From Akkermansiaceae bacterium (GTDB lineage Bacteria > Verrucomicrobiota > Verrucomicrobiia > Verrucomicrobiales > Akkermansiaceae): a DNA stretch of 59,299 nt. Where the stretch lies: positions 1 through 59,299 of the forward strand of contig CAIXKE010000041.1 of assembly GCA_903919975.1 (NCBI GenBank), read 5' to 3'. A program made the translations under genes and the position numbers. Shown here piece by piece: positions 14,538-42,230 of this stretch (position 1 is its first letter; every line of letters starts with the position of its first letter). Under the pieces are notes generated by a model. That model was not told the DNA's origin, made no database searches, and saw only the letters and a program-made list of their open reading frames with translations.

Positions 14538-15725
14538 TTATTGGATCAACATAAAATCCAGTGGCGGAAACACCTGTCCATTCAGTTGCGGCGCGAAGCC
14601 ATGCCGCCCGGAATGATAAACGCGGGTGGTAACCGGCTTCAGCGAATGCTGGCCGGTGATTTCCCAGCGCTCACCCGCTGCGAGCTCACGAGTGCGGCCT
14701 TTGAAAACTTTGGGACTGAGCATGCCGTTCGCCTTCCGGTAATGGATCGCGTAATCAAACATCACCTTGAGCGGATGGCGCGTGCGGTTGCGCACCACAA
14801 GACGGTATGCGAGGAAACCCCCAAGTTTCACCGTGCTATGCGTTAGGCCGCAGCCCTCAAGCGCGAGCGACTTGGCGGAGCCGTAGCCGTGCAGCGCGAG
14901 CGCTCCGGGATGCCCGGCTTTCAAAAGCGTGCGGCAAGCATGACGGGCGAGTTTCCCCACACGCTCGTCCTCCGGCGCATTCTTCAGCCAACGGGTGAGC
15001 GTTTGGATCACGAGCTCCGGGTGATGTTTGCTGAAATCGTTGAGATGATTGGAGACGGATAACCGAACGTAGTTGCTCGGGTCACGATAAAGGCTTTCTA
15101 ACAATCCAAGCGTAGGGTGAGGCGGCACCAGCAATTCCGACAAGTTTCCTCCCCACGGCAGCAATGGCCGACTGCCTTCCGAAACAAGACGTCGCACATG
15201 CTCGTCCGGGTGCCTACACCACGCCTGCAATTGCTTCAGCGTGCGTTCCCGATGGACCCGCAGAAATGGCCGGATCGCAAACTCCGCGGTAAAACATTTC
15301 GTTATTTCGCTAAATAACAACATCGCCTCGTCGAAATGTTCAAGGCCACGGCGGGCGACGATTTCGCTGAGCGGCCAGACGGCAAAGCCGTGCAAGCCGT
15401 GCAAGCCGTGCAAGCCGTGTGAACCACCGTGTGAACCACCGTGTGAACCACCGTGTGAACCACCTTGCGCATCTCCGTGGGGAACGTCTGCATCTTTTGC
15501 CAAGGTTTTCGCAAGGATCGCGAACAAATCTGGCGGGTGAGTTGGAAGGCCGGCTTCGAGACGATCGGCGACGAGGTGCATGCGTTGTTTCAGTTCCAGC
15601 GACTCCAACGCGGCTTCCAGCCCCCGGCAGAAACGTGACACGGAAAACGGCGGATGCGCGCGTTTCACGCATTCGGCGATGCGCCGCACATTGGAATACG
15701 AAAACTGGTTTTTGACTGGTTCCAT
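14538..15725 (-). CDS. AlkC-like DNA alkylation repair protein (HEAT-like repeats)
   Basis: 395 aa. The alpha-helical ARM/HEAT-like part (about 1-290) includes WCRHPDEHVRRLVSEGSRPLLPWG and LESLYRDPSNYVRLSVSNHLNDFSKHHP, both typical of the AlkC/AlkD glycosylase superfamily. The last 90 residues form an Ig-like domain (FLAYRLVVRNRTRHPLKVMFDYAIHY onwards) ending in FAPQLNGQVFPPLDFML, as in AlkC. The family excises alkylated bases. Odd feature: residues near 90-120 contain GGSH repeated four times then LHG repeated three times, encoded by DNA tandem repeats (15385-15468). ATG at 15725 was chosen over an upstream TTG. The gene is convergent with the cyclase-fold gene, 6 bp apart. Confidence 0.83.
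   Translation of the reverse strand: MEPVKNQFSYSNVRRIAECVKRAHPPFSVSRFCRGLEAALESLELKQRMHLVADRLEAGLPTHPPDLFAILAKTLAKDADVPHGDAQGGSHGGSHGGSHGGSHGLHGLHGLHGFAVWPLSEIVARRGLEHFDEAMLLFSEITKCFTAEFAIRPFLRVHRERTLKQLQAWCRHPDEHVRRLVSEGSRPLLPWGGNLSELLVPPHPTLGLLESLYRDPSNYVRLSVSNHLNDFSKHHPELVIQTLTRWLKNAPEDERVGKLARHACRTLLKAGHPGALALHGYGSAKSLALEGCGLTHSTVKLGGFLAYRLVVRNRTRHPLKVMFDYAIHYRKANGMLSPKVFKGRTRELAAGERWEITGQHSLKPVTTRVYHSGRHGFAPQLNGQVFPPLDFMLIQ
15385..15468. repeat. Two adjacent coding minisatellites inside the alkC-like gene
   Basis: On the plus strand, four copies of a 9-bp unit (AAGCCGTGC, the last ending in T) at 15385-15420 are followed by about 3.7 copies of a 12-bp unit (GAACCACCGTGT) from 15421. Both units are multiples of three, so copy-number change keeps the reading frame of the minus-strand gene and only lengthens a Gly/His linker. 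Confidence 0.9.
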
Positions 15726-17495: not shown

Positions 17496-17732
17496 GTGAC
17501 CACTATTCTTTCTCAAAAAGGACAGATCGTCCTGCCCAGCGCCATACGGGAACAAATGCATCTTGAGCCGGGACAGGATTTTGAAGTCTTCATAGACGAT
17601 GAGGACACCATCACACTCCGTCGGATCAATCGCCCACCCAATCACGGTTTGGTGGATCATCTCCTCGCCTGTCCTTACCCATTCGAGATTCCTCCACGGG
17701 CCAAAGACTTTACAAACGCCCTTTCCTTGTGA
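17496..17732 (+). CDS. vapB: VapB antitoxin, AbrB/SpoVT-type
   Basis: 78 aa from a GTG. The first 48 residues are a swapped-hairpin AbrB DNA-binding domain (ILSQKGQIVLPSAIREQMHLEPG). The C-terminal tail (about 50-78, ending PPRAKDFTNALSL) is the expected toxin-wrapping segment. The stop overlaps the GTG start of the VapC gene (GTGA), the usual antitoxin-first arrangement. It should neutralise the adjacent PIN toxin and repress the operon. Confidence 0.85.
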   Translation: MTTILSQKGQIVLPSAIREQMHLEPGQDFEVFIDDEDTITLRRINRPPNHGLVDHLLACPYPFEIPPRAKDFTNALSL

Positions 17733-18145
17733 GCTACCTCGTGGACACCAATGTCTTCAGCGAACTCGCCAAGACCCAACCAGATGACCAGGTTATCAAG
17801 TGGCTGCGCGATCACGAGGCCGACCTCTACTTGAGCACCGTCACCATCGGCGAACTCCGCCGTGGCATCGAAGCCCTGCCTGCCGGAAAACGGAAAGCCG
17901 CCCTGCAATCCTGGTTGACAGGCCTCTGCAAACGGATGGAAGGCCGCATTCTCAGTTTCAATACCAGCACCGCCCATGTCTGGGGACAACTAATGGCCGC
18001 ATGGAACAAAAAAGGCACGACCGTCCCCTCACTCGATAGCCAACTCGCCGCCACCGCCCATCGCCACAACCTGACAATGGTGACACGAAACGTCTCGGAT
18101 TTCCAAAATACCGGGGTGAAGCACTACAATCCCTTTGCGCCTTAG
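17729..18145 (+). CDS. vapC: VapC toxin (PIN-domain ribonuclease)
   Basis: 138 aa from a GTG overlapping vapB. All PIN acidic positions are present: D in YLVDTNVFSEL, E in IGELRRGIEAL, D in PSLDSQLAATA, and a terminal VTRNVSDF motif. Family members cleave specific tRNAs or rRNA. The YLVDTNVFSEL start is typical of the FitB/VapC subgroup. The gene appears intact and probably functional with the upstream antitoxin. Confidence 0.9.
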   Translation: MSYLVDTNVFSELAKTQPDDQVIKWLRDHEADLYLSTVTIGELRRGIEALPAGKRKAALQSWLTGLCKRMEGRILSFNTSTAHVWGQLMAAWNKKGTTVPSLDSQLAATAHRHNLTMVTRNVSDFQNTGVKHYNPFAP

Positions 18146-18229: not shown

Positions 18230-18436
18230 ATGCTTGCCATCAGACTACATCCCGATATCGAGAGCCGACTCGAACGTCTGGCCAAGAAGACCGGACGGAC
18301 CAAGACATTTTATGCACGCGAAGCAATTCTCGAGCACTTGGAAGACTTGGAGGACACCTATTTGGCTTCCCGGCGATTGGAAAGCCCGGCGAAAATCTAC
18401 TCAGCCGAGGAAGTGAAGCATGAACTGGGCCTATAA
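18230..18436 (+). CDS. relB: RelB-type ribbon-helix-helix antitoxin
   Basis: 68 aa. A ribbon strand (MLAIRLHPDIESRLERLA) and helix pair (TKTFYAREAILEHLEDLED) make an RHH DNA-binding domain. The tail with YSAEEVKHELGL is typical of DUF6290/RelB antitoxins. It overlaps the toxin ORF by 17 bp. It should bind RelE and repress its own promoter through the palindrome just upstream. Confidence 0.85.
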   Translation: MLAIRLHPDIESRLERLAKKTGRTKTFYAREAILEHLEDLEDTYLASRRLESPAKIYSAEEVKHELGL

Positions 18437-18686
18437 TTTTGATGAACGGGCATTCAAGGAATTGCGCAAGCTCGGCACTCAGGCGCAACGCGACATTATC
18501 TCCTACCTCGACGAAAGAGTTGCAGCTGAGGGTGATCCCCGCCGTTTCGGCAAAGGCCTCAAGGCGGACTTGGCTGGATTGTGGCGCTACCGAGTCGGCG
18601 ATTACCGCATCCTTTGCCAAATCAGGGATGGGGAGCTTCTAGTGCTGATAGTCGCTGTCGGACATCGCAGGGATGTTTACGAGTGA
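18420..18686 (+). CDS. relE: RelE/ParE-family toxin
   Basis: 88 aa with the RelE fold: FDERAFKELRKLGTQAQRDIISYL, then GLWRYRVGDYRILCQI and VLIVAVGHRRDVYE. The GLWRYRVGDYR and GHRRDVY motifs are those of the RelE mRNA-interferase group. It appears complete and is paired with the upstream RHH antitoxin. Confidence 0.88.
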   Translation: MNWAYNFDERAFKELRKLGTQAQRDIISYLDERVAAEGDPRRFGKGLKADLAGLWRYRVGDYRILCQIRDGELLVLIVAVGHRRDVYE

Positions 18687-18909: not shown

Positions 18910-19191
18910 GTGATCGAAAACTTCACCTGCAAGGATACCTCCAAAGTCTTTCATGGGGAATACTCCCGGAAATTCCCGGGCGATATTCAGCCACGGGCGC
19001 TCATGAGACTTCGTCAGCTTCACCGGATCATTGCCATCGACCAACTCCGCCAACCACCTTCCAACCGCCTCGAATCACTCTCTGGTAATCTCAAGGGATT
19101 CTGGAGCATCCGCATCAACCAACAATGGCGCATCGTCTTCCGCTGGAAAGACGGCACCGCTGCCGACGTGCAAATCACCGACTATCACTGA
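18910..19191 (+). CDS. higB: HigB-type toxin (RelE superfamily)
   Basis: 93 aa from a GTG. The protein begins IENFTCKDTSKVFHGEYSRKFP and ends GNLKGFWSIRINQQWRIVFRWKDGTAADVQITDYH, the hallmark of the HigB/host-killer group. Toxin-first order with the HigA antitoxin 9 bp downstream fits higBA loci. It probably cleaves translated mRNA at the ribosome. Confidence 0.9.
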   Translation: MIENFTCKDTSKVFHGEYSRKFPGDIQPRALMRLRQLHRIIAIDQLRQPPSNRLESLSGNLKGFWSIRINQQWRIVFRWKDGTAADVQITDYH

Positions 19192-19200
19192 GCCACCGCC

Positions 19201-19506
19201 ATGAAAAAGAAACCGCAACTCATCCCGCTGCTCAACTTCTTCGCCGAGACCCTCCGCGAAACGCTTGAGGAATCCGGCTTGTCCCAAGCGGAGGTCGCCC
19301 GCCGCTGCGGCATTCCCGCGCCCCACCTCACCCAGATGAAACAAGGCAAACGCCGCTGCACCCCCGAATATGATCTGCGCCTGAGCGCCTTCTTCGGCAT
19401 CACCCCCGGCCTGTGGATGAACCTCCAACTCGACTACGAATTCATGCGCGCCGACCGCGAAAAAGGCGAGGCCATCCGCAAGGAAGTGCAACCCTGCGCG
19501 GCGTGA
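19201..19506 (+). CDS. higA: HigA antitoxin (XRE-type)
   Basis: 101 aa. A helix-turn-helix is visible at about residues 20-70 (LEESGLSQAEVARRCGIPAPHLTQMKQGKRRCTPEYDLRLSAFFG in part), followed by PGLWMNLQLDYEFMRA, which is characteristic of HigA/VapI proteins. It represses higBA and neutralises HigB. A decayed copy of its middle lies at about 18711. It is convergent with the nuclease gene at 19543. Confidence 0.9.
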   Translation: MKKKPQLIPLLNFFAETLRETLEESGLSQAEVARRCGIPAPHLTQMKQGKRRCTPEYDLRLSAFFGITPGLWMNLQLDYEFMRADREKGEAIRKEVQPCAA

Positions 19507-19542
19507 AAGGCCGGGAATGTTAGGACAATAAAACCAATCACC

Positions 19543-21987
19543 TCACAAGCTCTTCATTGCTCGCAATAATTCCTTCAAACTGAGCACCCGAGGATACGAG
19601 GATTGCCTTCCAATAGAACCTTTTCGATAGGAGCGGCGGTTTTCAAATTCTCCGATTGCCGTCAGGAGCTCTGAATTATTCCAGCTCCGCCCAGCGAAAT
19701 CTGTATCTCGTTCAACCGCAAACACAGCGTAGATTTCTCCCTCGCCTCTGCCAGGGTAATCGGTGCTTTTAAGGTCGTTAGATGTGAAGATTTTGTATCC
19801 TGGAATCTTATCCTGTAGTTTGAAAATCGCGACCTCTCCCTTTTTCACGTAGGTATGCAGTAACACATGACGTGCCGTGGCGAATTCTGGTGGCACGTGC
19901 CAAGCTCCTTCCCTCTTCCCAAGACGGATGTTCGCAAAGCCCGTCTTCAGGGTCCACTCAAGTTGTGCTGGCGAATCATACCACGCCACGACCACATGAT
20001 GCTCTGCGGGTGGAAGCGCTCGATGGCTGTCGCTGAGTTCGCCAGTTTCAGGCCAACTCAACGAGCCATACCTCACAGGATTTTCTTTCAGCGTGTAAGA
20101 CTCCGCCGCATGGAATGTCGCCCGTTCCCGTGCCGTCGTCCGGTTGGATAGATGCTCGATCACCTGATCCAGAAACGTGGCCAAGTTGTCCAGGCCTGCG
20201 GCAGTTCCATCCTTGCGAGGACGGATCGCGAATGCACCCAAGCCCGGAAGCACCTCGTGAAAGCCCGTGAATTGCTCGTAACGCCTGACCTCGCCGGCAT
20301 CACCGGGATATAACACATAAGCACCCGCCGTGCGCCGTATGGCATCGCGGTAGGCGTGCATCTTGAGAAGATCGGCATACTTCGCGGAGCTGGGTTTACT
20401 GCCTGCCGATTCGGCACGGTCCTGAATTACCTCGTCGTCCGTGTCGCTGCCGAGCATCTCCGTCAGATTCTCCACCCGATACTTCGCATCGAAGTGCACA
20501 TGAACCATCGCGTCGCACGCCTCAGCCGAGACTCTGTCGAACTCCGCGGGCCAAATACTGATCGTATAATCCGGCTGCACGCCACGGGTCCAGCTTCCGC
20601 CGTTCTTATGGTTCTGGTCGCGGTTGAACTTCTTGTTGAAGTGAAACTCCGCATTCAATGGACGCCGGGTCTTCTCGGACCACACTCCGCCAATCGGCGT
20701 ATGTAGTTCGATGCCGCGCTCCAGTTTCAGGCGGGGCAATCCAGCATCCTTCTCCACCAGGATCGAGTGCAGCGCTTCCTTGCAGTCGAACTTCGAGCGG
20801 AACAGCGCCTCCAGTTGGAAAAACAACCAATACTCATACAATGTCGCCACATTCCTCGCGCCTCCCTGCCAGATTTCACGGCCTCCATCCCATGCGAGCT
20901 GCGCTCCCACATGAAACTGCAACCAGACATGAAGCAATTCCCGGTAGCCCGCCTTGCGTTGCAACACCGGGCTGCCTAGCGGTAAAAGCTCGGGGCGTGA
21001 AACATCGGGTAGAAAGCCGCGTCCTAGCAATGCATCCAGTCTCCCACGCAAGCGGGCGACGTCGCGCAACAACCTCGCATTGTTCGGTTTTGCCGCATCC
21101 ACCGGGTTCCTGCCCAGCATTCCCGCCACCTCCGCCAGGAAGTCGCGGAAATCCACCAGCACCATCTTGACGAACCGGTTCTCCGCCGTGTCGAGGAAGT
21201 CCGTGCGCTTGGAGACTTGAATCCGGGCTGGCAAGGACGTCAGCTTCGGATGGATTCCCCGCAAGGGATGATCCGCGTGCAAGGCGACACGATCACCCGT
21301 CTTGGAGATTTGTCGGGCGAAATCCTTGCCCGCTTTAAATGGATGGGAAATGGGTTGTTCCCGCCGCTCGTCTTCCATCAGGCGATGGGGATTCCGCAGC
21401 ACCTCGTCCACCGCTCCTCGAAAATTTGAGGATTCCAGCGTGTGGCGGAGAAACTCCAGTTGCTGCTCCAGCACCTCGGGATTTTTCTGCCACGCGGCGG
21501 AAAGCCGCAGGCGGGTGGGTGCCCGACTGTCCAGCAACAGGCCCGCACACTTTCCCGCGATGTGCTCCAGCATTCCCTGATAATGCTCCCGATAGTTCAG
21601 TTTCACCGACCGCACCTCCACCGCGCCTCTGGCCACCGGAGTGGAATCGTCTTCACGCACGACCGTCAGCGGCAGCACGCCGCATTGGTCGCCCGGCTCG
21701 ATGAAACCCTCGCCCGCTTCTGCCGGACTCCGCGAGATGGCGGGAGATTCCTCCAGGGCCAGGCCTTCGCCACCCACGATTTTATAAATATACCGACCGC
21801 GCTCACGCAGTTGCACCGGCTCTTCGCCGCGTGCCTCGGCCTCTGCATCCGGCCAGCGGATCAGGTCCGCCACTTCGCCGTCCCGACCGTTGGGTTTCCG
21901 AGTGCTCCAGATTTGAACCGTCGCGGTCACCCGCCCCTGCCCATCGTGGCAGGGCACTGAGAATGACGGCTGAACTTCCGCAGGCAT
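19543..21987 (-). CDS. DUF2357 / McrC-like PD-(D/E)XK nuclease
   Basis: 814 aa. An N-terminal beta-rich part (about 1-110) precedes a long helical DUF2357-type region (about 120-400) with FLDTAENRFVKMVLVDFRDFL and NVATLYEYWLFFQLEALF (E385). A restriction-endonuclease core follows, in which D473 of PDYTI and D500/K502 of HFDAKYR make a D...DAK active site. The C-terminal 250 residues have no motif I recognise. Proteins of this type act as the McrC-like nuclease partner of McrB-like AAA motors. The gene starts 3 bp after the AAA gene, so the two are surely co-translated. Cleavage of foreign DNA is inferred. Confidence 0.8.
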   Translation of the reverse strand: MPAEVQPSFSVPCHDGQGRVTATVQIWSTRKPNGRDGEVADLIRWPDAEAEARGEEPVQLRERGRYIYKIVGGEGLALEESPAISRSPAEAGEGFIEPGDQCGVLPLTVVREDDSTPVARGAVEVRSVKLNYREHYQGMLEHIAGKCAGLLLDSRAPTRLRLSAAWQKNPEVLEQQLEFLRHTLESSNFRGAVDEVLRNPHRLMEDERREQPISHPFKAGKDFARQISKTGDRVALHADHPLRGIHPKLTSLPARIQVSKRTDFLDTAENRFVKMVLVDFRDFLAEVAGMLGRNPVDAAKPNNARLLRDVARLRGRLDALLGRGFLPDVSRPELLPLGSPVLQRKAGYRELLHVWLQFHVGAQLAWDGGREIWQGGARNVATLYEYWLFFQLEALFRSKFDCKEALHSILVEKDAGLPRLKLERGIELHTPIGGVWSEKTRRPLNAEFHFNKKFNRDQNHKNGGSWTRGVQPDYTISIWPAEFDRVSAEACDAMVHVHFDAKYRVENLTEMLGSDTDDEVIQDRAESAGSKPSSAKYADLLKMHAYRDAIRRTAGAYVLYPGDAGEVRRYEQFTGFHEVLPGLGAFAIRPRKDGTAAGLDNLATFLDQVIEHLSNRTTARERATFHAAESYTLKENPVRYGSLSWPETGELSDSHRALPPAEHHVVVAWYDSPAQLEWTLKTGFANIRLGKREGAWHVPPEFATARHVLLHTYVKKGEVAIFKLQDKIPGYKIFTSNDLKSTDYPGRGEGEIYAVFAVERDTDFAGRSWNNSELLTAIGEFENRRSYRKGSIGRQSSYPRVLSLKELLRAMKSL

Positions 21988-21990
21988 GTA

Positions 21991-23358
21991 TCAGGCCTCG
22001 GAGAAGGTGACGAATTGATCCCGGATGAGCTTGCGATACATCCGCAGGATCTTGTCGAAGCTCAGCTTGTAACGAGCCGCCTCCAGAGGCTTTGCGGAGT
22101 TCTTCAATTTGAGCGACTCAAACACGGCTTCCGGGGAATACGTTTTTTCGTTCTCCGCCTTGCCCGCTTCCTTACAAAGTTTGAGAAACGCTTCCTGGTC
22201 CAACCCGGCGCGATCCGCACCGCAGGCGAAAGCCAGAGCCCACAGCAGCCCTTCCAGCTTGGTTCGGGAACCATGCAACTTCGGTAGTAACTTCTGCACG
22301 ATCACCGCATCCATGGCTTTGTTAAACCAATCGGTGCTTTCCTCTTCCTTGCCGGCGAGTATGCGATAGAAGTGCATGAAGCGTGCAGCCTCATTCGCGA
22401 CCCGGAAGCCAAACTCGGCGTTGTGTTCACCCAACAAATCAAAAAACAACAAGACCTCCTTGGCAAACAGCGCCGCGACGCCGGTTGGAACGGTCAGTTG
22501 TTTGGCGGACTCCGCCACAAATGCGGGGCCGAAAGTCGAATCGTAACGGCTGAACTCTTCAAGCTCCGGTGTTCTTGGCTTAGCCAGAAACTTGATCAGG
22601 TCATCGCGCTCAACCCTGAACTCGATGACGTTCGCCCGATCCAACACTTTAGGAGAAAACATATAAGTCGTTTCATCCACGTTCACCGTGCCGATGATGA
22701 AGAGATTGGAAGGCAGGCGGAAGACAGGATCGACGTCCGACCGCAATCCATCCCATTCCTTCGTGGCAATCTCCCGACGATAGAGTTCGCTTGGATCCCC
22801 GGATTCGATCATTGAAAGCAAATCGGCGAAATAACGTTCGACATGGGAAAGGTTCATCTCATCCAAAATGAGGAAATGAGGGATGCCATTATCTTCCGCC
22901 AGCATAGCCCGTTGAATCAGGTCCAAGGCGGGCCGGGTGACATAGCGTTTCGGATCAAGCCCGTCCGGATAGCCGAGCACCGCATCACTGCCGGTCCAGT
23001 CAGCACCCACGGGAATCACGACATGAACGTCCGATTCACCCTCTTCAGACGCAGGTGCAAGCCAGCGGGCGAAGGCCTGCGCCAGCTTGGTTTTCCCTGA
23101 GCCAGCAAGGCCGCTCAAAATTAAAAAGCGTTTGGAACCCAGAGCCGCTGCGAATCTCAGAAATAGTTCTTTCGCTACATGGAGACCCACGTCCTCACGA
23201 TCTGCCAGTTCAATGAAAGCGGCAACAAAATCAATCAACCCATCATTATCCGCGCCAGGTTGAATCTCTACTTGCTCAATTTTCTGAATTAGCTCGGTGG
23301 CAGACATTTGACGGGCCTTCTCCGCACCACGTTTAGGACTCATGGATAATTTATTCAT
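21991..23358 (-). CDS. McrB-like AAA+ ATPase
   Basis: 455 aa. Walker A is GLAGSGKT (residues 83-90), Walker B LILDEMN (163-169), followed by SHVERYFADLLSMIESG, and the sensor region is GTVNVDETTYMFSPKVLDRANVIEF (about 223-247). This is the MoxR/McrB clade. Classic GTP-using McrB has MNTADRS at the sensor; here it is VNVDETT, so ATP use is more likely (inference). The C-terminal third is helical. It overlaps the upstream 198-aa gene by ATGA and precedes the DUF2357 nuclease by 3 bp. It probably forms the hexameric motor of a restriction complex. Confidence 0.82.
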   Translation of the reverse strand: MNKLSMSPKRGAEKARQMSATELIQKIEQVEIQPGADNDGLIDFVAAFIELADREDVGLHVAKELFLRFAAALGSKRFLILSGLAGSGKTKLAQAFARWLAPASEEGESDVHVVIPVGADWTGSDAVLGYPDGLDPKRYVTRPALDLIQRAMLAEDNGIPHFLILDEMNLSHVERYFADLLSMIESGDPSELYRREIATKEWDGLRSDVDPVFRLPSNLFIIGTVNVDETTYMFSPKVLDRANVIEFRVERDDLIKFLAKPRTPELEEFSRYDSTFGPAFVAESAKQLTVPTGVAALFAKEVLLFFDLLGEHNAEFGFRVANEAARFMHFYRILAGKEEESTDWFNKAMDAVIVQKLLPKLHGSRTKLEGLLWALAFACGADRAGLDQEAFLKLCKEAGKAENEKTYSPEAVFESLKLKNSAKPLEAARYKLSFDKILRMYRKLIRDQFVTFSEA

Positions 23359-23951
23359 ACTGATTCAAGTAATTCGCCATTTAGAATGTCAGGGCGTTCC
23401 TCTGTAAAGAGTGTTTCAAAATCCGAATCTCTTTCTCCCTCCGGTGATTCGTAACCAAATTCGACCGCGAAAATCGAAACCACGTCCTCAATTGTGACTG
23501 TATCACCCACAAGGGGGAAATCACGATAGAGAAAAATGGCCAGATCAAAAACATTTAATGGAACGCTATACAAAAGGTGTTTAAGCGCCATTTTTGAATG
23601 ATTGCGTTTAAGCGAGTATCCACTTGATCCGACACTTACCACTTCATTAAAAGTGCTCCGAATAGAACTTTTGGCGTATGATCCTGCTACGTTGCTATTC
23701 AACCAAATATTATTTAGCGTCGGAGGCTTACTGATGAATGGCTTAATGTATGGATATCCAGCCGGGCATCCAGGAACGCGATAAAACTTCTCGAAAAATT
23801 CGGGGAAGCTCGGCTGAATATTTTTCGTATCTCCGTTTTCTGCGGAACGATACAGCAAGCAAAGATACCCCGCAAAGTGTTCGTGTGTTTTCCGCTGCCT
23901 TAGTCTTTCCAGGCATGAAGCAACCACTTCTTTTTTTACCAAATAACTCAT
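23355..23951 (-). CDS. Hypothetical protein embedded in the restriction block
   Basis: 198 aa with no motif I recognise. It begins SYLVKKEVVASCLERLRQRKTHEHFAGYLCLLYRSAE, continues with aromatic-rich segments (FEKFYRVPGCPAGYPYIKPF), and ends in an acidic tail (TLFTEERPDILNGELLESV). It is joined by 4-nt ATGA overlaps to the methyltransferase upstream and the AAA gene downstream, so it is a fixed member of the operon. Base composition is AT-richer than the AAA and nuclease genes. A DNA-recognition or specificity role, like the small extra subunits of BsuMI-type systems, is a guess. Confidence 0.7.
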   Translation of the reverse strand: MSYLVKKEVVASCLERLRQRKTHEHFAGYLCLLYRSAENGDTKNIQPSFPEFFEKFYRVPGCPAGYPYIKPFISKPPTLNNIWLNSNVAGSYAKSSIRSTFNEVVSVGSSGYSLKRNHSKMALKHLLYSVPLNVFDLAIFLYRDFPLVGDTVTIEDVVSIFAVEFGYESPEGERDSDFETLFTEERPDILNGELLESV

Positions 23952-25123
23952 AATCGTTTAAGTGTGGTTGAGCTTAGATCTATTCCAATCGCGGATCGAC
24001 CTAATTCATTTGCAACATCAAGAGTTGTGCCCGTGCCCATAAAAGGATCAAGCACGACGCCAGGAACAAACTTAGCGTTACATGCACAGGAAGACCACCC
24101 GACTGATCGTTTTTTGGCGAATGTGAACTCTCTAAAATATCCACCCAAGGCGGCCTTCGCCTCTTGCGCGAGTTTTTGCACCTTCTCAGTATTCCGATCA
24201 GTACCGGTTTGAACGTGCCTTGCCTTCCCTGCATCAGAAATTCCAGTCGCTCGAATTGCCGCAAAATGCTCAAGCGTTAAATTATTTAGTTTCGCAAGTT
24301 CAATAGCACGCCGGGCTTGTGGACGAGCCAAATCTAATTCGTGAGTACGTTCAACAATACGTTGTCTTGGCTGAAAGCATTTGGAGCAGACTTCATTAGG
24401 GCAAGCTAGCAAAATGGCTCGCCTCGCGATCTCCGTTGGAAAGGCTGCAAGGTGCTCACCAAGCTCTAGTTCTGCACCTAATTCCCATACGTCACCGGGA
24501 TTTGCGCCTCTTTGATCCACGCTATACCGTTCCGCATAGCCAAACAAGTCGTAGTAATAATCCCCCATGGCAAAATGTAGGACGTATTCATGACGGCTAG
24601 CTAATCGATCTTTTGCAGGATCTGGCATGCCACTTTTTTTGACCCAGATGATTCTATTACGAACTTTCCAACCTGCATTACGCGCAGCAGCTTCAATCAG
24701 GCTTGGAACGCCTTGAAGACTTTTACGCCAATAGGTATCGCCTACATTAATAAATATCGATGCGGCAGGGCGCAATATTCTGCGCCAAGCTTTCATTGCA
24801 TCAATAATTTGGTCGACATACTTTTCCGGCGTGGGCTCTTGCCCTATTTGATTTTCAAAACCATAATCGCGCTTCTTCCAATACGGAGGAGAAGTTACAA
24901 CGAGATCAACGCATGCATCAGGGATGCTCATCAAACCAGCTTGGTGGTTTCCTGAGTCTAGAAGATTTGTCACATTTCGGGCATCGCCACGAAACGTTAT
25001 CCTGTAAGGCTTGCCGACTTTTGAATTTGGAAGGGTGTGCTGCTTGACAGCGTCGGGTATTGGACCGGTCTTCTTGGAAGAAAGCTTCTTCAGGCTGGGA
25101 ACAGAGAGTTTCTTGGAAGTCAT
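23948..25123 (-). CDS. DNA methyltransferase, N4-cytosine/N6-adenine beta class
   Basis: 391 aa. Catalytic motif IV TSPPYW is at residues 77-82, and SAM-binding motif I DPFMGTGTT at 359-367 near the C-terminus. This IV-before-I order is the beta class (SPPY favours N4-methylcytosine). An insertion between them holds CSKC (about 255) and CAC (about 343), a likely zinc site seen in many such enzymes. The start ATG overlaps the stop of the PIN stub, and its stop overlaps the 198-aa gene. It probably protects host DNA from the downstream McrB/McrC-like complex. The gene is AT-richer than the core genes of the window. Confidence 0.88.
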   Translation of the reverse strand: MTSKKLSVPSLKKLSSKKTGPIPDAVKQHTLPNSKVGKPYRITFRGDARNVTNLLDSGNHQAGLMSIPDACVDLVVTSPPYWKKRDYGFENQIGQEPTPEKYVDQIIDAMKAWRRILRPAASIFINVGDTYWRKSLQGVPSLIEAAARNAGWKVRNRIIWVKKSGMPDPAKDRLASRHEYVLHFAMGDYYYDLFGYAERYSVDQRGANPGDVWELGAELELGEHLAAFPTEIARRAILLACPNEVCSKCFQPRQRIVERTHELDLARPQARRAIELAKLNNLTLEHFAAIRATGISDAGKARHVQTGTDRNTEKVQKLAQEAKAALGGYFREFTFAKKRSVGWSSCACNAKFVPGVVLDPFMGTGTTLDVANELGRSAIGIDLSSTTLKRL

Positions 25124-25287
25124 GGTGTCAAAAGTTGCAATCGCAGGCCCGCCTTTTCGAAGTTCTTGAAGTCGCTGTCAATCGTCACCATCTCCAGGTC
25201 GTGGCCGATGGCGAAGGCGGCGAGGTAGGCGTCGGTCCAGACTTTGGGCGAGGCGGAGGAAAGCTGTGACCGCCGGTGGGATCTCAT
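25120..25287 (-). pseudogene. PIN-domain C-terminal stub
   Basis: 55 codons from an ATG that overlaps the VapC stop. From SPKVWTDAYLAAFAIGHDLEMVTIDSDFKNFEKAG it is clearly the C-terminal half of a VapC-type PIN protein (D in TDAYLAAFA, D in DSDF). The first half and its two acidic residues are absent. Its TGA overlaps the methyltransferase ATG. Most likely the tail of a former VapC left when the present vapBC recombined in. Expression as a short peptide is possible because both junctions are translationally coupled. Confidence 0.6.
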
Positions 25288-25688
25288 GGCGTTCCAAGGA
25301 TTGGGTTGAACGCATGACCGGACGCCCAAGGTTTTGCGAGGAGGGCCATGTCCAAGGTGGCGAGCTTGAGACCGTGGCGGACGGCAAGGCGCACCAAGTG
25401 GGCGTCGGTGGAGTCTTTGTAAGAGGATTCGGGCGAATCAGTGGCGCTTAGATCGTCGGCGAGGAAACGGTGGGCCGGGCGCGAATAGAGGCTGATCAGC
25501 GAACGGTGGGCATCCGGCCATGAGGCGGAGTAACCGGGACTGAGGCTCACGCGCATGAATCCGAGTTCCACGATGGGAGTGCTATGAAACTCGGGTTGCT
25601 CATCCAACCATGCGCGCACCGCCGCGTGATCCGCATGAGTGGTCCAACGGCTGGCGAGCAGGAAATTCACATCCAACAGCCAGCTCAT
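25284..25688 (-). CDS. vapC: VapC toxin (PIN domain)
   Basis: 134 aa with WLLDVNFLLASRW (leading Asp), E in TPIVELGFMRVSL, D in DSTDAHLVRLAVRHGLKLATLD and the closing ATLD motif. This is the TTHxxA-R-type VapC subgroup with an N-terminal LDVN. It overlaps vapB upstream and the PIN stub downstream by ATGA. It seems intact. The deleted VapC at 41822 is from the same subgroup (FLADD, TDAHL, ATLD). Confidence 0.85.
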   Translation of the reverse strand: MSWLLDVNFLLASRWTTHADHAAVRAWLDEQPEFHSTPIVELGFMRVSLSPGYSASWPDAHRSLISLYSRPAHRFLADDLSATDSPESSYKDSTDAHLVRLAVRHGLKLATLDMALLAKPWASGHAFNPILGTP

Positions 25689-26050
25689 GGAGTTTCCTCG
25701 AGTATTTGTTTGATCCGTTCAGGAGTCATCGGGGGAGCGCCCGCAGGGGCCGCGAGCAGGCAGTCAGCCAAACCGACACCGCAGGGATCCTCTTGACACC
25801 GGTTTTCCTTTTCGAGCGCGAGCAACTCCGCCGTGCTCAAAAGCGAGGCGGGCGCGGACTTGGGAGATGGAAACAAGGGGAGCTTGATTGCAGTTTTCGA
25901 CGGGGAGGAAACTGACGAGGAGGAATTTTCCTTACCAAGGCCCCGTTTCAGCAAATCCGCCGCAACATCCTTGAGCTTGCGGCCCTCATGAACCGCCAGA
26001 AACTTTATTTCCCTTACCAGATCGGCGGGCAGATCAATCGTGGTTTTCAT
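25685..26050 (-). CDS. vapB: VapB-type ribbon-helix-helix antitoxin
   Basis: 121 aa. The N-terminal RHH is MKTTIDLPADLVREIKFLAVHEGRKLKDVAADLLKRGL (residues 1-38). A Ser/Pro-rich linker and a tail ending APPMTPERIKQILEETP follow, the latter probably binding VapC. The stop overlaps the vapC ATG. It is the first gene of the chain of overlapping genes that reaches the nuclease at 19543, so its autoregulated promoter may drive the entire restriction block (inference). Confidence 0.85.
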   Translation of the reverse strand: MKTTIDLPADLVREIKFLAVHEGRKLKDVAADLLKRGLGKENSSSSVSSPSKTAIKLPLFPSPKSAPASLLSTAELLALEKENRCQEDPCGVGLADCLLAAPAGAPPMTPERIKQILEETP

Positions 26051-26105
26051 GCGGTAAGTTTGCTGGTTAGCTGGCTTGCTGTCAAATTCAGAGTTTTAGT
26101 AAATG

Positions 26106-26222
26106 GGAGTTGGAGAGAAACCACCCGCTTGAGGGCCAGCACTTCCACCTCGGGAAGGATGCCTTCCCCGGCGAGGAATTCGCGGAAGTCACTGCCACGA
26201 TGGGCGTTTTGAGATGCTTTTG
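26106..26222. repeat. Duplicated fragment of a HigA-like antitoxin gene (5' half)
   Basis: This stretch is a close copy of 28591-28707, the 5' half of the HigA-like gene on the minus strand (encoding RDFLAGEGILPEVEVLALKRVVSLQL with small changes). It is frameshifted and has no 3' half attached. Its inner break falls at the 10-mer GGAGTTGGAG, which also ends the other fragment at 26697. Confidence 0.8.
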
Positions 26223-26225
26223 GTG

Positions 26226-26438
26226 TCAGCGGCTCATCAAACGGGCTTGGAGTTCATCCACCGAGAGCCAAGTCGCATTACCGGATTCGATCATTTCAGA
26301 GCGTTCTACCAAAACCTTGCCGTGCCAATCGGGCGATGGGTACTCGATTCCTTCCTTGGAAAAGGATTACCACAAGAGTTCCATGGCTTCGACCCGTTCA
26401 CTGGATGACATTCGGGAAATTTGTTCCATCGCCAACAT
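26226..26438 (-). pseudogene. Addiction-module antitoxin (Unstable_antitox type) with an in-frame stop
   Basis: The minus-strand frame from ATG 26438 reads MLAMEQISRMSSSERVEAME then LLW, a TAA at codon 24, and continues in the same frame SFSKEGIEYPSPDWHGKVLV, SEMIESGNATWLSVDELQARL to a TGA. The SPDWHGKVLVER and WLSVDELQARL parts match the family of RelB-like addiction-module components (usual motif SPAWHxxVLxER). One nonsense change (probably from GAA) inactivates it. No toxin partner lies beside it. Confidence 0.65.
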
Positions 26439-26482
26439 GGGATGAAGCTACTTTGAAGTTTGGTCACAATCAAGCCTCCAAA

Positions 26483-26697
26483 TGAATGGGGTCGTAGCTC
26501 ACGGATTAACATCAAGCAGGCACGAAGCGCAGTTCCACCTTCTTTCCGAGAGCGGCGGTGTCGCCGAGGCTGGCCACGGTGAGTGAGGGGTTTGAGGGAT
26601 CGAGCATCCGGTCGAGCGAGGCCCGGCTGGTTTTCATGCGCGAGGCCAGTTCGGTCTTGGTGACGTGTTCCTGCACGAGGATTTGCTGGAGTTGGAG
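26483..26697. repeat. Duplicated fragment of a HigA-like antitoxin gene (3' half)
   Basis: A close copy of 28383-28600, including the same flanking GGGGTCGTAGCTCACGG and the 3' coding part (KTSRASLDRMLDPSNPSLTV). With its partner at 28383 it forms direct repeats of about 215 bp bracketing the hipBA genes. Confidence 0.85.
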
Positions 26698-26721
26698 TGA
26701 AGCCCGGTGAGCCCCAGGACA

Positions 26722-27987
26722 TTACCATTCCTTTGGATTCAGCTCCTCGCACCCTGAGAAGACATCGGGATTCAAGACGGCCCGGCGGCGCAATTGCGAG
26801 CGGGTGGTCTGAGCCATCCCGATCTCTTCACAGAGGCCGTCGAAGTTTTCTGCAATCCCACGGACCTGAGCCTCCACGATGGATCGTGCCTCGTCTTCTG
26901 AAAGGCCGAACTCCGGCGCGGTCTCGAGGCATAATCGAATTCTCGAGAGATTGCTGCGCTGGGTGATCTTCATCCCGTGGCTTGCCTCTCCGCCCGCCCG
27001 TGGGAAGGGCGTGATGTCATAGGCCGGTGTGAGCCGGATGGTGTTTCCCTCGACGAAGAAGGAGTGATTGCGGGCATGATCGTCGGTGTTTCCGATCAGC
27101 ACGTTGAAAACGAGCCGGGAGAACAACTCCGTGGCGTCCTTCTTGAAGGCGAGGCCGTGGATCCGCAGTTGATCCACCAGATTCGGATAGGTGGCTTCCC
27201 TTGCCCATTTCTCGTCGAGGCCGAGCACGGTCAAGGCAGAGACGATCGAGCGTCGGCACCAGCCGGAAGTGCCGGGTTGTCGATCAAAACGCTTCACCAG
27301 AAGCACATCTTTTTCCGCTGATTTCTCGAGGGAAACCTCCGCCACGTTCATTCCGAGCCGCGCTGCGAGCGTCATGGCGACGTATTCCGCCTTCACGATC
27401 TGGAAGTTGTCCGTGGAGATGGAGAACTTCGCCACATACTTGGCGTTTTCCCCGGTGATGGCGGCCTTGGGTCGGGCTCCGCCGATGCTGGTTCCGTGAT
27501 TCAGCGCCTCTTCAAGCTCTGGAGGAATCGGCTGATGGGTCGCAAGCCGTTCGGCCGCCTCGTGCAGCTCGACCAGCGAGGCGGTGCCCAGCTCTCTGGG
27601 AATGTATTCCGACGCGGATTCCTGGAAGTCCAGGGCACCCGTGCGGTCCGATCCCGAGTGCAGAAGATAGGTCGATTCATCCACGTCTTCTCCGGCAGCC
27701 CTTTCCTTTCTGCCGAAGAGCCGGTTTTCGATCACGCGCCGCCCCCAGGCATCGGGTGCCGCATCGCGCAGACAGGAGAAATGATCCAGGCCATCAATGG
27801 GTTCATGCGCTCCCGGTCGCAGCGGCAGCTCCGGTTCGTAGATGGGCCCGGCATTTCCACGCTCCAGGTAGGAACGTCCGTACACGAAGCTCTGGCGCCC
27901 TTTCGCGTCGAAACGCAGTTCACCGGCCACGACCGGCTCGGTCGCTCCCGGGAGCCATCTCCAGACATAGCACTTAGAAGCGGTCAT
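26722..27987 (-). CDS. hipA: HipA-type serine/threonine kinase toxin
   Basis: 421 aa. An N-terminal HipA_N domain (GELRFDAKGRQSFVYGRSYLE) and the kinase core are present. SIGGARPKAAI is the phosphate-binding loop, KYVAKF the Lys strand, NVLIGNTDDHARNHSFF the catalytic motif (Asp and Asn of NxDDHxxN) and LTPAYDITPFP the DFG-like motif. Family kinases phosphorylate aminoacyl-tRNA synthetases and induce dormancy. ATG at 27987, overlapping hipB by 14 bp, was preferred to one at 28014. The kinase looks intact. Confidence 0.9.
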   Translation of the reverse strand: MTASKCYVWRWLPGATEPVVAGELRFDAKGRQSFVYGRSYLERGNAGPIYEPELPLRPGAHEPIDGLDHFSCLRDAAPDAWGRRVIENRLFGRKERAAGEDVDESTYLLHSGSDRTGALDFQESASEYIPRELGTASLVELHEAAERLATHQPIPPELEEALNHGTSIGGARPKAAITGENAKYVAKFSISTDNFQIVKAEYVAMTLAARLGMNVAEVSLEKSAEKDVLLVKRFDRQPGTSGWCRRSIVSALTVLGLDEKWAREATYPNLVDQLRIHGLAFKKDATELFSRLVFNVLIGNTDDHARNHSFFVEGNTIRLTPAYDITPFPRAGGEASHGMKITQRSNLSRIRLCLETAPEFGLSEDEARSIVEAQVRGIAENFDGLCEEIGMAQTTRSQLRRRAVLNPDVFSGCEELNPKEW

Positions 27988-28309
27988 CGATTTCCTGCTG
28001 GTGGGTTCGGACACGCTTCGGGAGCAAGGACTCGAGTTCGGCGGTTTTTGATGCGGTCACCGCAAAGCGATCCGGGTCGGGATCGAAAAGCGGCACCCCG
28101 AGAATGCGTGCCGCTTCGAAATAGGCACCGATCGCGACGCTGGGGGATCCTTCGAGGATCTTGCGGACGGTAGGCGTGGAAACTCCGAGCCGATCGGCCA
28201 ACTCGCCGAGGGTCAGATTTCTTTCCTTTCTCCGGATACGAAGCAGCGCGGCAAAGTGCGAAAGCGCCGCTTCGGCAACCGTTCCGATGCGGACTGCGGA
28301 CTTGGCCAT
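27974..28309 (-). CDS. hipB: HipB-type XRE antitoxin/repressor
   Basis: 111 aa. The helix-turn-helix is RKERNLTLGELADRLGVSTPTVRKILEG (about residues 28-55), and IGAYFEAARILGVPLFDPDPDRF completes the XRE-like domain. A basic C-terminal tail (KRVRTHQQEIDDRF) may contact HipA. The start codon lies 5 bp from a perfect 13-bp inverted repeat, the probable operator. It overlaps hipA. Confidence 0.85.
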   Translation of the reverse strand: MAKSAVRIGTVAEAALSHFAALLRIRRKERNLTLGELADRLGVSTPTVRKILEGSPSVAIGAYFEAARILGVPLFDPDPDRFAVTASKTAELESLLPKRVRTHQQEIDDRF

Positions 28310-28347: not shown

Positions 28348-28411
28348 ATTTTTCGGATTATCTGATTGGGAGAGCAGAGCAGTGAATGGGGTCGTAGCTC
28401 ACGGATTAACA

Positions 28412-28713
28412 TCAAGCAGGCACGAAGCGCAGTTCCACCTTCCGGCCGAGAGCAGCGGCGGCTTTTCCGAGGCTGGCCACCGTGAGGGAGGGGTTTGAGG
28501 GATCCAGCATCCGGTCCAGCGAAGCCCGGCTGGTTTTCATGCGCGAAGCCAGTTCGGTTTTGGTGACGTGCTCCCGCTCGAGGATCTGCTGGAGTTGGAG
28601 GGAAACCACGCGCTTGAGGGCGAGGACTTCCACCTCGGGTAGGATGCCTTCCCCGGCGAGGAAATCGCGGAAGTCGCCGCCGTGCGGGCGTTTTGAGATG
28701 CTTTTGTTTTCAT
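28412..28713 (-). pseudogene. HigA-like XRE antitoxin, frameshifted near its start
   Basis: The body reads GDFRDFLAGEGILPEVEVLALKR then LQQILEREHVTKTELASRMKTSRASLDRMLDPSNPSLTV, a standard helix-turn-helix antitoxin. The expected ATG at 28713 overlaps the toxin stop (ATGA), but one A is missing from the run in ATGAAAACAAAAGC, putting it out of frame by one base. Restoring the A gives about 100 aa beginning MKTKSISKRPHGG. Translation could still start at an internal GTG (28633). Alternatives are polymerase slippage or -1 frameshifting at the A-run, or a sequencing error. Confidence 0.65.
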
Positions 28714-29063
28714 CGGTTGGATCGAATCAATTTCTGAATCTCATCGTGGTTGCCGATGAAGAAGAAAACCAGTTCTGCCGGTGACGCGATGAACACGAAG
28801 GACAGCCTATCATCCAGGCCGACACGGCATTCGAAAATCGTCTTGGTGAGGCGACGGATGCCGATCCCGGAATGCCCATGCGGACGGCCCCAGCTTTCAA
28901 AAACCTGATTGATTGCATCACCGATTTCCTGCCGCTTGGACTTCAACTTGGAGCGGATTTGTTCCAGCAATTCCTCAGTGACCCTTGCCTTCAAGGAGGG
29001 CTTCGATGTCTCCAGTGAAGTCGTGGAGTTTACCTTCTTTGCGGGCTTTTTCGATTTGGCCAT
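28710..29063 (-). CDS. RelE/ParE-superfamily toxin
   Basis: Up to 117 aa. The toxin core is AINQVFESWGRPHGHSGIGIRRLTKTIFECRVGLDDRLSFVFIA with LVFFFIGNHDEIQKLIR, typical of the GNHDE-ending RelE-like group. The first 30 residues (Lys/Ser/Thr-rich) overlap the Phd-like antitoxin, so the real start may be an internal TTG near 28972. The stop overlaps the HigA-like ATG. It therefore sits between two potential antitoxins of different families. Confidence 0.75.
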   Translation of the reverse strand: MAKSKKPAKKVNSTTSLETSKPSLKARVTEELLEQIRSKLKSKRQEIGDAINQVFESWGRPHGHSGIGIRRLTKTIFECRVGLDDRLSFVFIASPAELVFFFIGNHDEIQKLIRSNR

Positions 29064-41821: not shown

Positions 41822-41990
41822 AAGGAAATGGCAGGAGATATGCACCTAGGATTCCGGTATCCAAGGTGGCGAGTTCAAAGCTGTGGGCCTGCGCCAGCGT
41901 GAGCAAATGGGCATCAGTGGTTTGCGAAGCGGCAGCACACCAAGCAGGGAAACCTGCGGAAGAGGAACGATCATCAGCCAGGAAGGTATT
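41822..41990 (-). pseudogene. VapC toxin gene with internal deletion
   Basis: Immediately behind the vapB-like gene the minus strand has ATG AAA TAC (the expected MKY start), then jumps one base out of frame into FLADDRSSSAGFPAWCAAASQ, TTDAHLLTLAQAHSFELATLD and a TAA. These are the C-terminal half of the same VapC subgroup as 25284-25688. The first half, with the leading Asp and Glu, has been deleted. The original ATG overlaps the vapB stop, so the locus was once a normal vapBC. Confidence 0.7.
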
Positions 41991-42230
41991 TCATGGGAAT
42001 TCCGCCAGCATTTGACGCACCGTTTCAGTGCTTAGGTTGGAACTTCCGGACAGTGGAGCGAAAATCTCCGCGCCGGTGATGTCGCAGCGGATTTTGCCGA
42101 CCGGAGCGGCCTCGACGGCATCAGTAGCCCGGCGGCGCAAATATTCGGATAAGCTCAAGCGTTGCTGCTTTGCCCTTTTGCGGATGCGCTGCGCCTCATC
42201 CTCACTCACTTTGAAAGAGATGGTGATCAT
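41991..42230 (-). CDS. vapB: Orphan VapB-like antitoxin (ribbon-helix-helix)
   Basis: 79 aa. The RHH domain is MITISFKVSEDEAQRIRKRAKQQRLSLSEYLRRRATDAV (residues 1-39). The tail with STETVRQMLAEFP is like VapB toxin-binding ends. It is intact although its toxin is deleted, as if kept as an anti-addiction gene or not yet decayed. Confidence 0.75.
   Translation of the reverse strand: MITISFKVSEDEAQRIRKRAKQQRLSLSEYLRRRATDAVEAAPVGKIRCDITGAEIFAPLSGSSNLSTETVRQMLAEFP

Follow-up and report, generated by a model that had tools for sequence, protein, structure and literature searches.

Gene order and junctions of the operon

The stretch of DNA analysed in our study (the window) comprises 59,299 nucleotides (nt) of contig CAIXKE010000041.1 from an Akkermansiaceae bacterium (assembly GCA_903919975.1). 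Seven open reading frames (ORFs) follow each other on its minus strand from position 26050 to 19543, all running from ATG to TGA with a single stop each. As predicted from their sequences, they constitute a methylase-guarded restriction-modification (R-M) operon of the McrBC type, resembling LlaJI and BsuMI, with an NxD-type McrB and a VapBC toxin-antitoxin (TA) pair at its head. This McrBC-type R-M system, with its probable detached recognition subunit, is a new variant, and its linkage to VapBC is old but breakable within one genus. On balance we lean slightly towards reading the whole locus as an old VapBC-headed McrBC-type R-M system that is controlled by VapB, possesses a detached reader of its DNA site and has exchanged two of its blocks. 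The features are the following (lengths of proteins in amino acids, aa):

26051 to 26089, minus strand: conserved region upstream of vapB, with TTGACA at 26085-26080, 17 nt containing CCAG repeats, CAAACT at 26062-26057 and 6 nt to the ATG
25685 to 26050, minus strand: VapB-like antitoxin, 121 aa, with a ribbon-helix-helix (RHH)-like N-terminus and tails A and B in tandem (alignment of 14 VapBs, AlphaFold 2 (AF2), Foldseek)
25284 to 25688, minus strand: VapC-type PIN ribonuclease toxin, 134 aa (PF01850, 4.4e-05; D6, E41, D95, D113)
25120 to 25287, minus strand: PIN stub of 55 codons, apparently the C-terminus of a displaced VapC of the type found in genome G026 (TIGR00028 positions 99-139)
23948 to 25123, minus strand: amino DNA methyltransferase, 391 aa (N6_N4_Mtase, 3.3e-39; 67% identity to the methylase of locus L106)
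23355 to 23951, minus strand: 198-aa protein, proposed DNA-recognition subunit, a homologue by hhalign of the N-terminal domain of related McrBs
21991 to 23358, minus strand: McrB-like AAA motor, 455 aa (AAA matches; PADLOC PDC-M26A, 1.5e-41; NxD motif in GTVNVDE)
19543 to 21987, minus strand: McrC-like nuclease subunit, 814 aa (DUF2357 and PD-(D/E)XK, as PDDEXK_7; D473, D500, K502)

ATGA overlaps join VapB to VapC (25685-25688), VapC to the stub (25284-25287), the stub to the methylase (25120-25123), the methylase to the 198-aa protein (23948-23951) and the latter to McrB (23355-23358), and McrB and McrC are separated by 3 nt (TAC). An earlier reading of this DNA (the sequence-only reading) had described ATGA junctions with the nuclease following after 3 nt; re-reading returned all five overlaps and the gap as claimed, and its gene identities agree with the domain matches, i.e., PIN for VapC, a C-terminal PIN fragment for the stub, N6_N4_Mtase, AAA, and DUF2357 with PDDEXK_7. 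When ORFs of 100 aa or more are considered, four-nt overlaps of the form NTGA with a possible start occur in 7 of the 27 co-directional neighbouring pairs in the window, three of which are the operon's own. Elsewhere in the window they occur in 4 of 24 pairs, which gives five consecutive ones a chance of about 1e-4 if junctions were independent, which they are not within an operon. The five successive ATGA overlaps point to a compact, probably translationally coupled operon. Judged by eye, GAGG-like stretches precede the starts of VapC and McrC and no Shine-Dalgarno-like stretch precedes those of the methylase, the 198-aa protein and McrB.

The residues D473, D500 and K502 of McrC are invariant in six McrCs, and we take them to be the nuclease active site; PDDEXK_7 occurs once in the own genome, and the McrC profile had no match among the PDB sequences. 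McrB combines a P-loop with the N-D signature GTVNVDE and carries no N-terminal recognition domain of its own; McrB structures were retrieved with its sequence (best E 0.002). The NxD motif marks a branch of McrBs with methyltransferase neighbours and a DUF2357 McrC (as described in part of PMC11090510). Compared with McrBC-type Type II R-M systems, the operon has the methylase, the McrB-like AAA protein and the PD-(D/E)XK McrC, but its recognition domain is not fused to McrB; the homologous domain resides in a separate ORF, which makes the operon a variant. Assignment to the CoCoNuT systems, characterized by NxD McrBs fused to long coiled coils and by CnuE/HEPN or similar genes (same part of PMC11090510), was considered and rejected: the McrB of 455 aa has no N-terminal extension, McrC has its nuclease residues, and there is no HEPN match among the operon proteins.

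For comparison, 80 of 310 confirmed McrC loci were kept, in 7 of which McrB was unreadable. The P-loop lies before residue 110 in 8 of the 73 McrBs read, four of which (L104, L122, L125, and L126) show, by eye, an insertion behind the P-loop. Because of these insertions we claim no rule that a short McrB is preceded by a separate recognition gene. No description of a VapBC-headed McrBC-type R-M operon was found in the literature by title and abstract opening, with most subscription journals outside the coverage.

The VapBC pair and its linkage to the R-M genes

The first gene gave no match in Pfam, PADLOC or NCBIfam up to an E of 0.1, and none among the PDB sequences; it is identified as VapB by its position, its structure model and its relatives. 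In the AF2 model an extended start and two helices (residues 9-22 and 26-36) make up the first 36 residues, with block values of the predicted local distance difference test (pLDDT) of 91-92 for residues 11-30. The best Foldseek match of this model is the VapBC structure 5x3t (E 0.19); MatP, CdbA, Arc, and CopG, presumably all RHH proteins, were also listed, and none reached an E of 0.001 or below. The second gene scores 72.8 bits against TIGR00028, 0.8 bits short of the cutoff of 73.6, and its PIN domain (PF01850) keeps the four acidic residues D6, E41, D95, and D113, presumably the active site, with the small antitoxin gene overlapping upstream.

This VapC is 99% identical to one in genome G041 and differs in type from the VapC of G026. 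The stub also follows the VapC of G041, with 94% DNA identity over the whole stretch, and no methylase was found behind it there. Between the window and G041 the VapC gene shows 13 silent differences and 1 replacement (135 codons) and the stub 7 and 11 (56 codons; Fisher p 0.0028), which indicates that the toxin is under selection and the stub apparently not. The stub shares 74% identity with the C-terminal end of VapC in G026. The “PIN stub” of the sequence-only reading holds as a PIN fragment, with the refinement that it is a relic, to all appearance the C-terminus of a displaced VapC of the G026 type, which has kept the ATGA junction to the methylase. We considered the stub as a working second toxin and rejected this, as it represents the C-terminal part only and changes in a relaxed manner.

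In an alignment of 14 VapBs, the N-domain is combined with tail A in seven loci, all with the G026-type toxin, with tail B in three loci, with the toxin type of the window, and with both tails in four (the window, two copies in G030, and G001), again with the toxin type of the window. The VapB of the window, in which a tail A matching that of G026 and a tail B matching that of G041 stand one after the other, is a composite, which resembles a frozen intermediate of a toxin exchange. Both G030 copies (L088 and L089) stand solo and combine the composite VapB with the VapC type of the window, 81-82% and 92-95% identical.

G026 (also sampled as L022, L102, and L043), a second species of the same genus, possesses the same order of VapB (64% identity over 95 aa), VapC, methylase, McrB (76%) and McrC (82%), and its vapC stop and methylase start share the same ATGA, so that the gene order that the sequence-only reading had proposed to search for is indeed found elsewhere. 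Genome G036 holds a relic: its VapBC, in which the toxin gene has suffered frame damage, is followed by what remains of a G026-type methylase. G023, which holds one of the two nearest McrBs, has retained methylase and McrB, with its McrC cut off by the contig edge after the first part, and the VapBC pair is gone; however, approximately 13 codons of the vapC 3′ end stand directly before its methylase ATG (local score 19, attained by 0 of 5000 random pieces). Since tblastn did not detect this trace and many TA- and R-M-anchored loci carry only ca. 1.5 kb of flank, further traces may have escaped us. A search for vapC 3′ ends before other methylases (L023-L027, L105, and L106) yielded nothing clear, the best score being 12 with a random-piece rate of 0.012 that is uncorrected for the sliding search. 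The G026 methylase is matched in 17 of the 73 genomes of the genus, near full length and at high identity only in G026 and G023 (86%); the G036 remnant is among the rest. The vapC 3′ end thus abuts the methylase start in all four close-type loci of the genus (window, G026, G023, and G036), and the head is therefore older than this strain. The sequence-only reading would have fallen with a pair present only in this strain; the whole arrangement in G026 and the traces in G036 and G023 show otherwise, although G023 has lost the pair. A single linkage event would suffice for the four loci, if it was inherited or carried along and then lost in part.

The fragmentary locus of G001, with VapB, a VapC with an in-frame stop, remains of the stub and the last ~130 residues of an McrC, was considered as the same operon type and is counted apart, because its McrC tail is nearer to the L024 lineage (59% to L024, 54% to the window, and 52% to G026, with 69% between the window and G026 in that part). 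It may represent a second association or a further exchange.

A simpler view would be that VapBC is a passenger, one of many TA pairs in a recombining island that landed upstream of the R-M genes by chance, with an overlap that reflects compaction and implies a shared transcript only. We regard this as rather unlikely, but a number of observations support it and thereby weigh against the reading that we favor. At least four other TA pairs lie within ca. 9 kb (MazE-like/VapC at 17496-18145, RHH-like/ParE at 18230-18686, HigBA at 18910-19506, and HipBA at 26722-28309). The VapC and VapB families each match in 68 of 145 related genomes, the own genome included, and similar VapBCs occur without R-M genes nearby: among 54 TA-anchored loci, R-M pieces were found only at the window, G026, G001, and G036. 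Conversely, the other 79 McrC loci of our sample are without these VapB and VapC families, which among 123 R-M-anchored loci occur only at L043 (i.e., G026). The linkage has also been lost both ways, G023 having kept R-M without VapBC and G036 and G001 VapBC without R-M. Against the passenger view, in at least four loci the junction persisted through exchanges of methylase and toxin, the codon changes in the present VapC are purifying, and small regulators head homologous operons elsewhere (see below).

The same losses bear on the suggestion of the sequence-only reading that the pair could prevent loss of the block, which is not supported. Stabilization of the R-M block by VapBC through post-segregational killing, R-M and TA systems both being established as addiction modules (in the part of PMC3874152 that treats them), is in our opinion quite improbable: G023 retained R-M without the pair, R-M is itself addictive, and VapBC is no guard against deletions that spare VapBC, as G036 and G001 show. 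The toxin gene is damaged in both losers of R-M and intact where both modules stand (window and G026), which fits addiction too, but the cases are few and weak either way. They do offer natural comparisons of both modules (window and G026), R-M only (G023), and a VapBC remnant only (G036 and G001).

The 198-aa protein and a probable exchange of blocks

The protein encoded between methylase and McrB, which the sequence-only reading had listed as unknown, gave only a chance-level match in Pfam and NCBIfam and no match to a nuclease family. By profile comparison it is a distant homologue of McrB N-domains: a profile of four such proteins matched one of eight N-domains with a Prob of 92.6 and an E of 4.6e-7 over 185 collinear columns (hhalign). 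The score of 50.2 compares with a maximum of 23.5 in 200 column shuffles, 15.6 for the reversed profile, and a maximum of 24.7 over 40 columns for 62 regions ahead of the P-loop in McrBs of the genome scan, although these controls include L102, a member of the tested family, which alone gave 36 columns. Comparisons with single N-domains ranged from an E of 0.00021 (L203) to 0.42.

The N-domains are found fused to McrB in G026, G023, and L105; a search for this fused subfamily was empty in the 387 genomes of the phylum (0/387), an outcome that carries no weight there. Five of the six plasmid matches were opened (H35 was left out). On three rhizobial plasmids and in Thauera the domain is fused to an AAA protein that has a DUF2357 gene as its neighbor (AAA part checked in one), and on a Mycobacteroides plasmid (L203) it is free-standing between a methylase and a 402-aa AAA protein. 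As for the 198-aa protein itself, the L106 locus of an Opitutaceae metagenome-assembled genome has, in the same order, the methylase (67%), a homologue (42%), a 443-aa McrB and an McrC, with no VapBC match. Two further relatives, on haloarchaeal plasmids, immediately follow a homologous methylase, overlapping it by 4 nt in one case and starting 15 nt behind it in the other. Apart from the own genome, the 387 genomes of the phylum contain one weak match with stops and the 145 related genomes none, and two scans of viral contigs (47 and 11 pattern matches) yielded no relative. Among further matches to the methylase, four, on plasmids of Streptomyces, Natrialba, Salinibaculum, and Natrinema, had no 198-aa homologue by hidden Markov model. 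The profile had a best E of 0.53 against PDB sequences, and an AF2 model built from two sequences was uninformative (pLDDT 40). Behind both haloarchaeal pairs (L184:5631-8054 and L185:5429-8063) a 156/158-aa ORF follows that by eye resembles a cytidine deaminase; Pfam gave no match for the one of these ORFs that was searched.

In McrB and LlaJI it is the N-terminus that binds the site (PMC1459862 and PMC12707154, in the parts dealing with recognition), from which we infer a role as recognition subunit. The 198-aa protein is probably a detached McrB N-domain, i.e., the DNA-recognition part of the motor as a separate subunit. Two findings argue against this. No McrBC was recognized near the methylase/198-aa pair on either haloarchaeal plasmid, so the protein need not be a partner of McrB, and with three N-domains the profile match drops to a Prob of 5.2 and an E of 0.0075, so that the homology leans on the wider set. 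The haloarchaeal pairs would also suit a protein that is itself a restriction nuclease, forming with the methylase a complete small Type II system in front of the McrBC pair. The low GC content that marks the two genes as imported would agree with this, and the invariant H23, H118, N85, and N87 leave an HNH-like site conceivable. However, the four members have no invariant Asp, Glu, or Lys, which counts against a PD-(D/E)XK nuclease, and the collinear match to McrB N-domains goes together with an adjoining McrB that lacks this domain both in the window and in L106; we therefore consider a nuclease very improbable.

DNA homology between the window and G026 consists of three stretches: 26087-25801 (beginning upstream of the vapB ATG and ending near codon 83), 25257-25108 (reaching from the stub to the first part of the methylase), and a third that begins at 23209 and continues through the McrC end. 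Methylase and 198-aa gene, with a GC content of 0.470 and 0.422 compared to 0.566 for the window, fall within the unshared stretch from about methylase codon 5 to McrB codon 50. The simplest reading of these sequences is that a methylase was imported jointly with its reader and displaced the resident methylase together with the resident fused N-domain. The locus would thus have swapped two blocks, which lie between the three shared stretches, on a retained scaffold. The first is tail B with the present VapC behind the old VapB, and the second is the methylase with the recognition protein, standing where the earlier methylase and the N-domain fused to the earlier McrB had been. If so, recognition domains of McrB can be fused or free-standing and swapped together with a methylase, a simple route to a change in specificity.

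Proposed control of the operon and comparison with known systems

Upstream of vapB, TTGAC is present in 13 and TTGACA in 11 of the 14 loci (by eye), and most of them have a −10-like hexamer some 6 nt before the ATG with CCAG repeats in between (by eye); homology of the window with G026 begins in this region. The spacing of the −10 hexamer to the ATG suggests a leaderless vapB transcript. The −10 hexamer of the window itself (CAAACT) is weak, which speaks against such a promoter. A consensus promoter scan of 19400-26300 gave none on the minus strand and three on the plus strand (3.8 expected in shuffles), but it also misses the proposed vapB promoter and is thus a weak test. Terminator-like matches in the same interval number five in all compared to 8.8 expected, those on the minus strand lying inside genes.

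Small antitoxin-like genes recur at the head of such operons. On three rhizobial plasmids (L204:2539-2919, L206:2520-2927, and L207:2526-2930) a HigA-family gene stands 39-44 nt before the methylase of a McrBC-type operon, with no HigB annotated and none seen by eye among the upstream ORFs, which were unsearched against libraries. In Thauera the start of the methylase lies in a 4-nt overlap with an ORF of 73 aa that has a weak RHH-like match, G037 and G066 have upstream ORFs with weak ParD or RHH matches, and other McrC loci have Xre-like helix-turn-helix (HTH) genes (by eye). This recurrence favors VapB as a control protein, with VapC as the unusual addition. The R-M genes most likely stand under a predicted VapB-controlled promoter, and control by the antitoxin is plausible in view of the RHH-like start of VapB, the conserved upstream sequence, and the antitoxin-like heads elsewhere.

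In the reading that we favor, the R-M operon would already have stood behind VapBC when at least four loci in one Akkermansiaceae genus diverged or were exchanged. A single transcript would start at or beside the vapB ATG from a promoter repressed by VapB, alone or with VapC, and the ATGA junctions would couple translation along the operon. A drop in VapB would then free VapC and raise the R-M genes; the 198-aa protein would read the site protected by the methylase and serve the McrB motor, and McrC would cut unmethylated DNA. This makes it testable whether a TA pair can regulate or guard a restriction system and is more than its neighbor. It is tempting, but unlikely as matters stand, to go further and propose a two-layer defense from one operator, in which a phage that halts VapB synthesis would de-repress the restriction block while VapC arrests the cell, with the toxin as an exchangeable cartridge. 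If true, VapBC would stand to this McrBC-type system as PrrC does to the Type I system it belongs to, and the composite two-tailed VapB would accept a new VapC while keeping the old operator, like the downstream swap of methylase and recognition protein.

Among known systems, BsuMI of Bacillus subtilis likewise combines methylases with a three-gene restriction part that includes McrB- and McrC-like subunits, but its methylases act on cytosine and it is not known to have a VapBC head. The Mycobacteroides plasmid locus shares the separate recognition-like ORF between methylase and short McrB, and differs in its domain subfamily, its methylase type, another gene before McrC (DUF2357), and in that no VapBC was seen. 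PrrC is an RNase, as is VapC. The R-M guardians PrrC and PARIS tie a second, cell-stopping layer to restriction, as VapBC may do in the window, but they sense restriction inhibition (PMC12707154, in part). LlaJI of Lactococcus lactis is also methylase-guarded and restricts unmethylated DNA by means of an McrB-like NTPase with N-terminal site recognition and an McrC-like subunit (parts of PMC1459862 and PMC12707154). It has two methylases and recognition fused to R1, whereas the window has one amino methylase, a separate recognition protein, an NxD motif and a VapBC head. The methyltransferase-associated NxD McrBC systems share the NxD McrB, the methyltransferase neighbors and the DUF2357 McrC; as described in the part of PMC11090510 that covers them, they comprise two-component genes and complex McrC fusions, and neither VapBC nor a detached recognition protein is named there. 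R-M systems controlled by C proteins also have a small DNA-binding regulator at or near the head (PMC3874152, in part), but C proteins are HTH activators or repressors, unlike the RHH-like antitoxin with a toxin partner and putative control function found here.

Some further observations concern the surroundings of the operon. Diverged direct repeats (89-95%) at 26106-26704 and 28383-28716 flank HipBA, and the copy that lies immediately upstream of vapB represents a degenerate form of the HTH antitoxin-like gene at 28412-28633, which points to local shuffling of TA genes. A further PIN/VapC coding piece with an internal stop lies at 41844-42005, and a short tandem array of a 12-nt unit (CCGTGTGAACCA) at 15415-15479.

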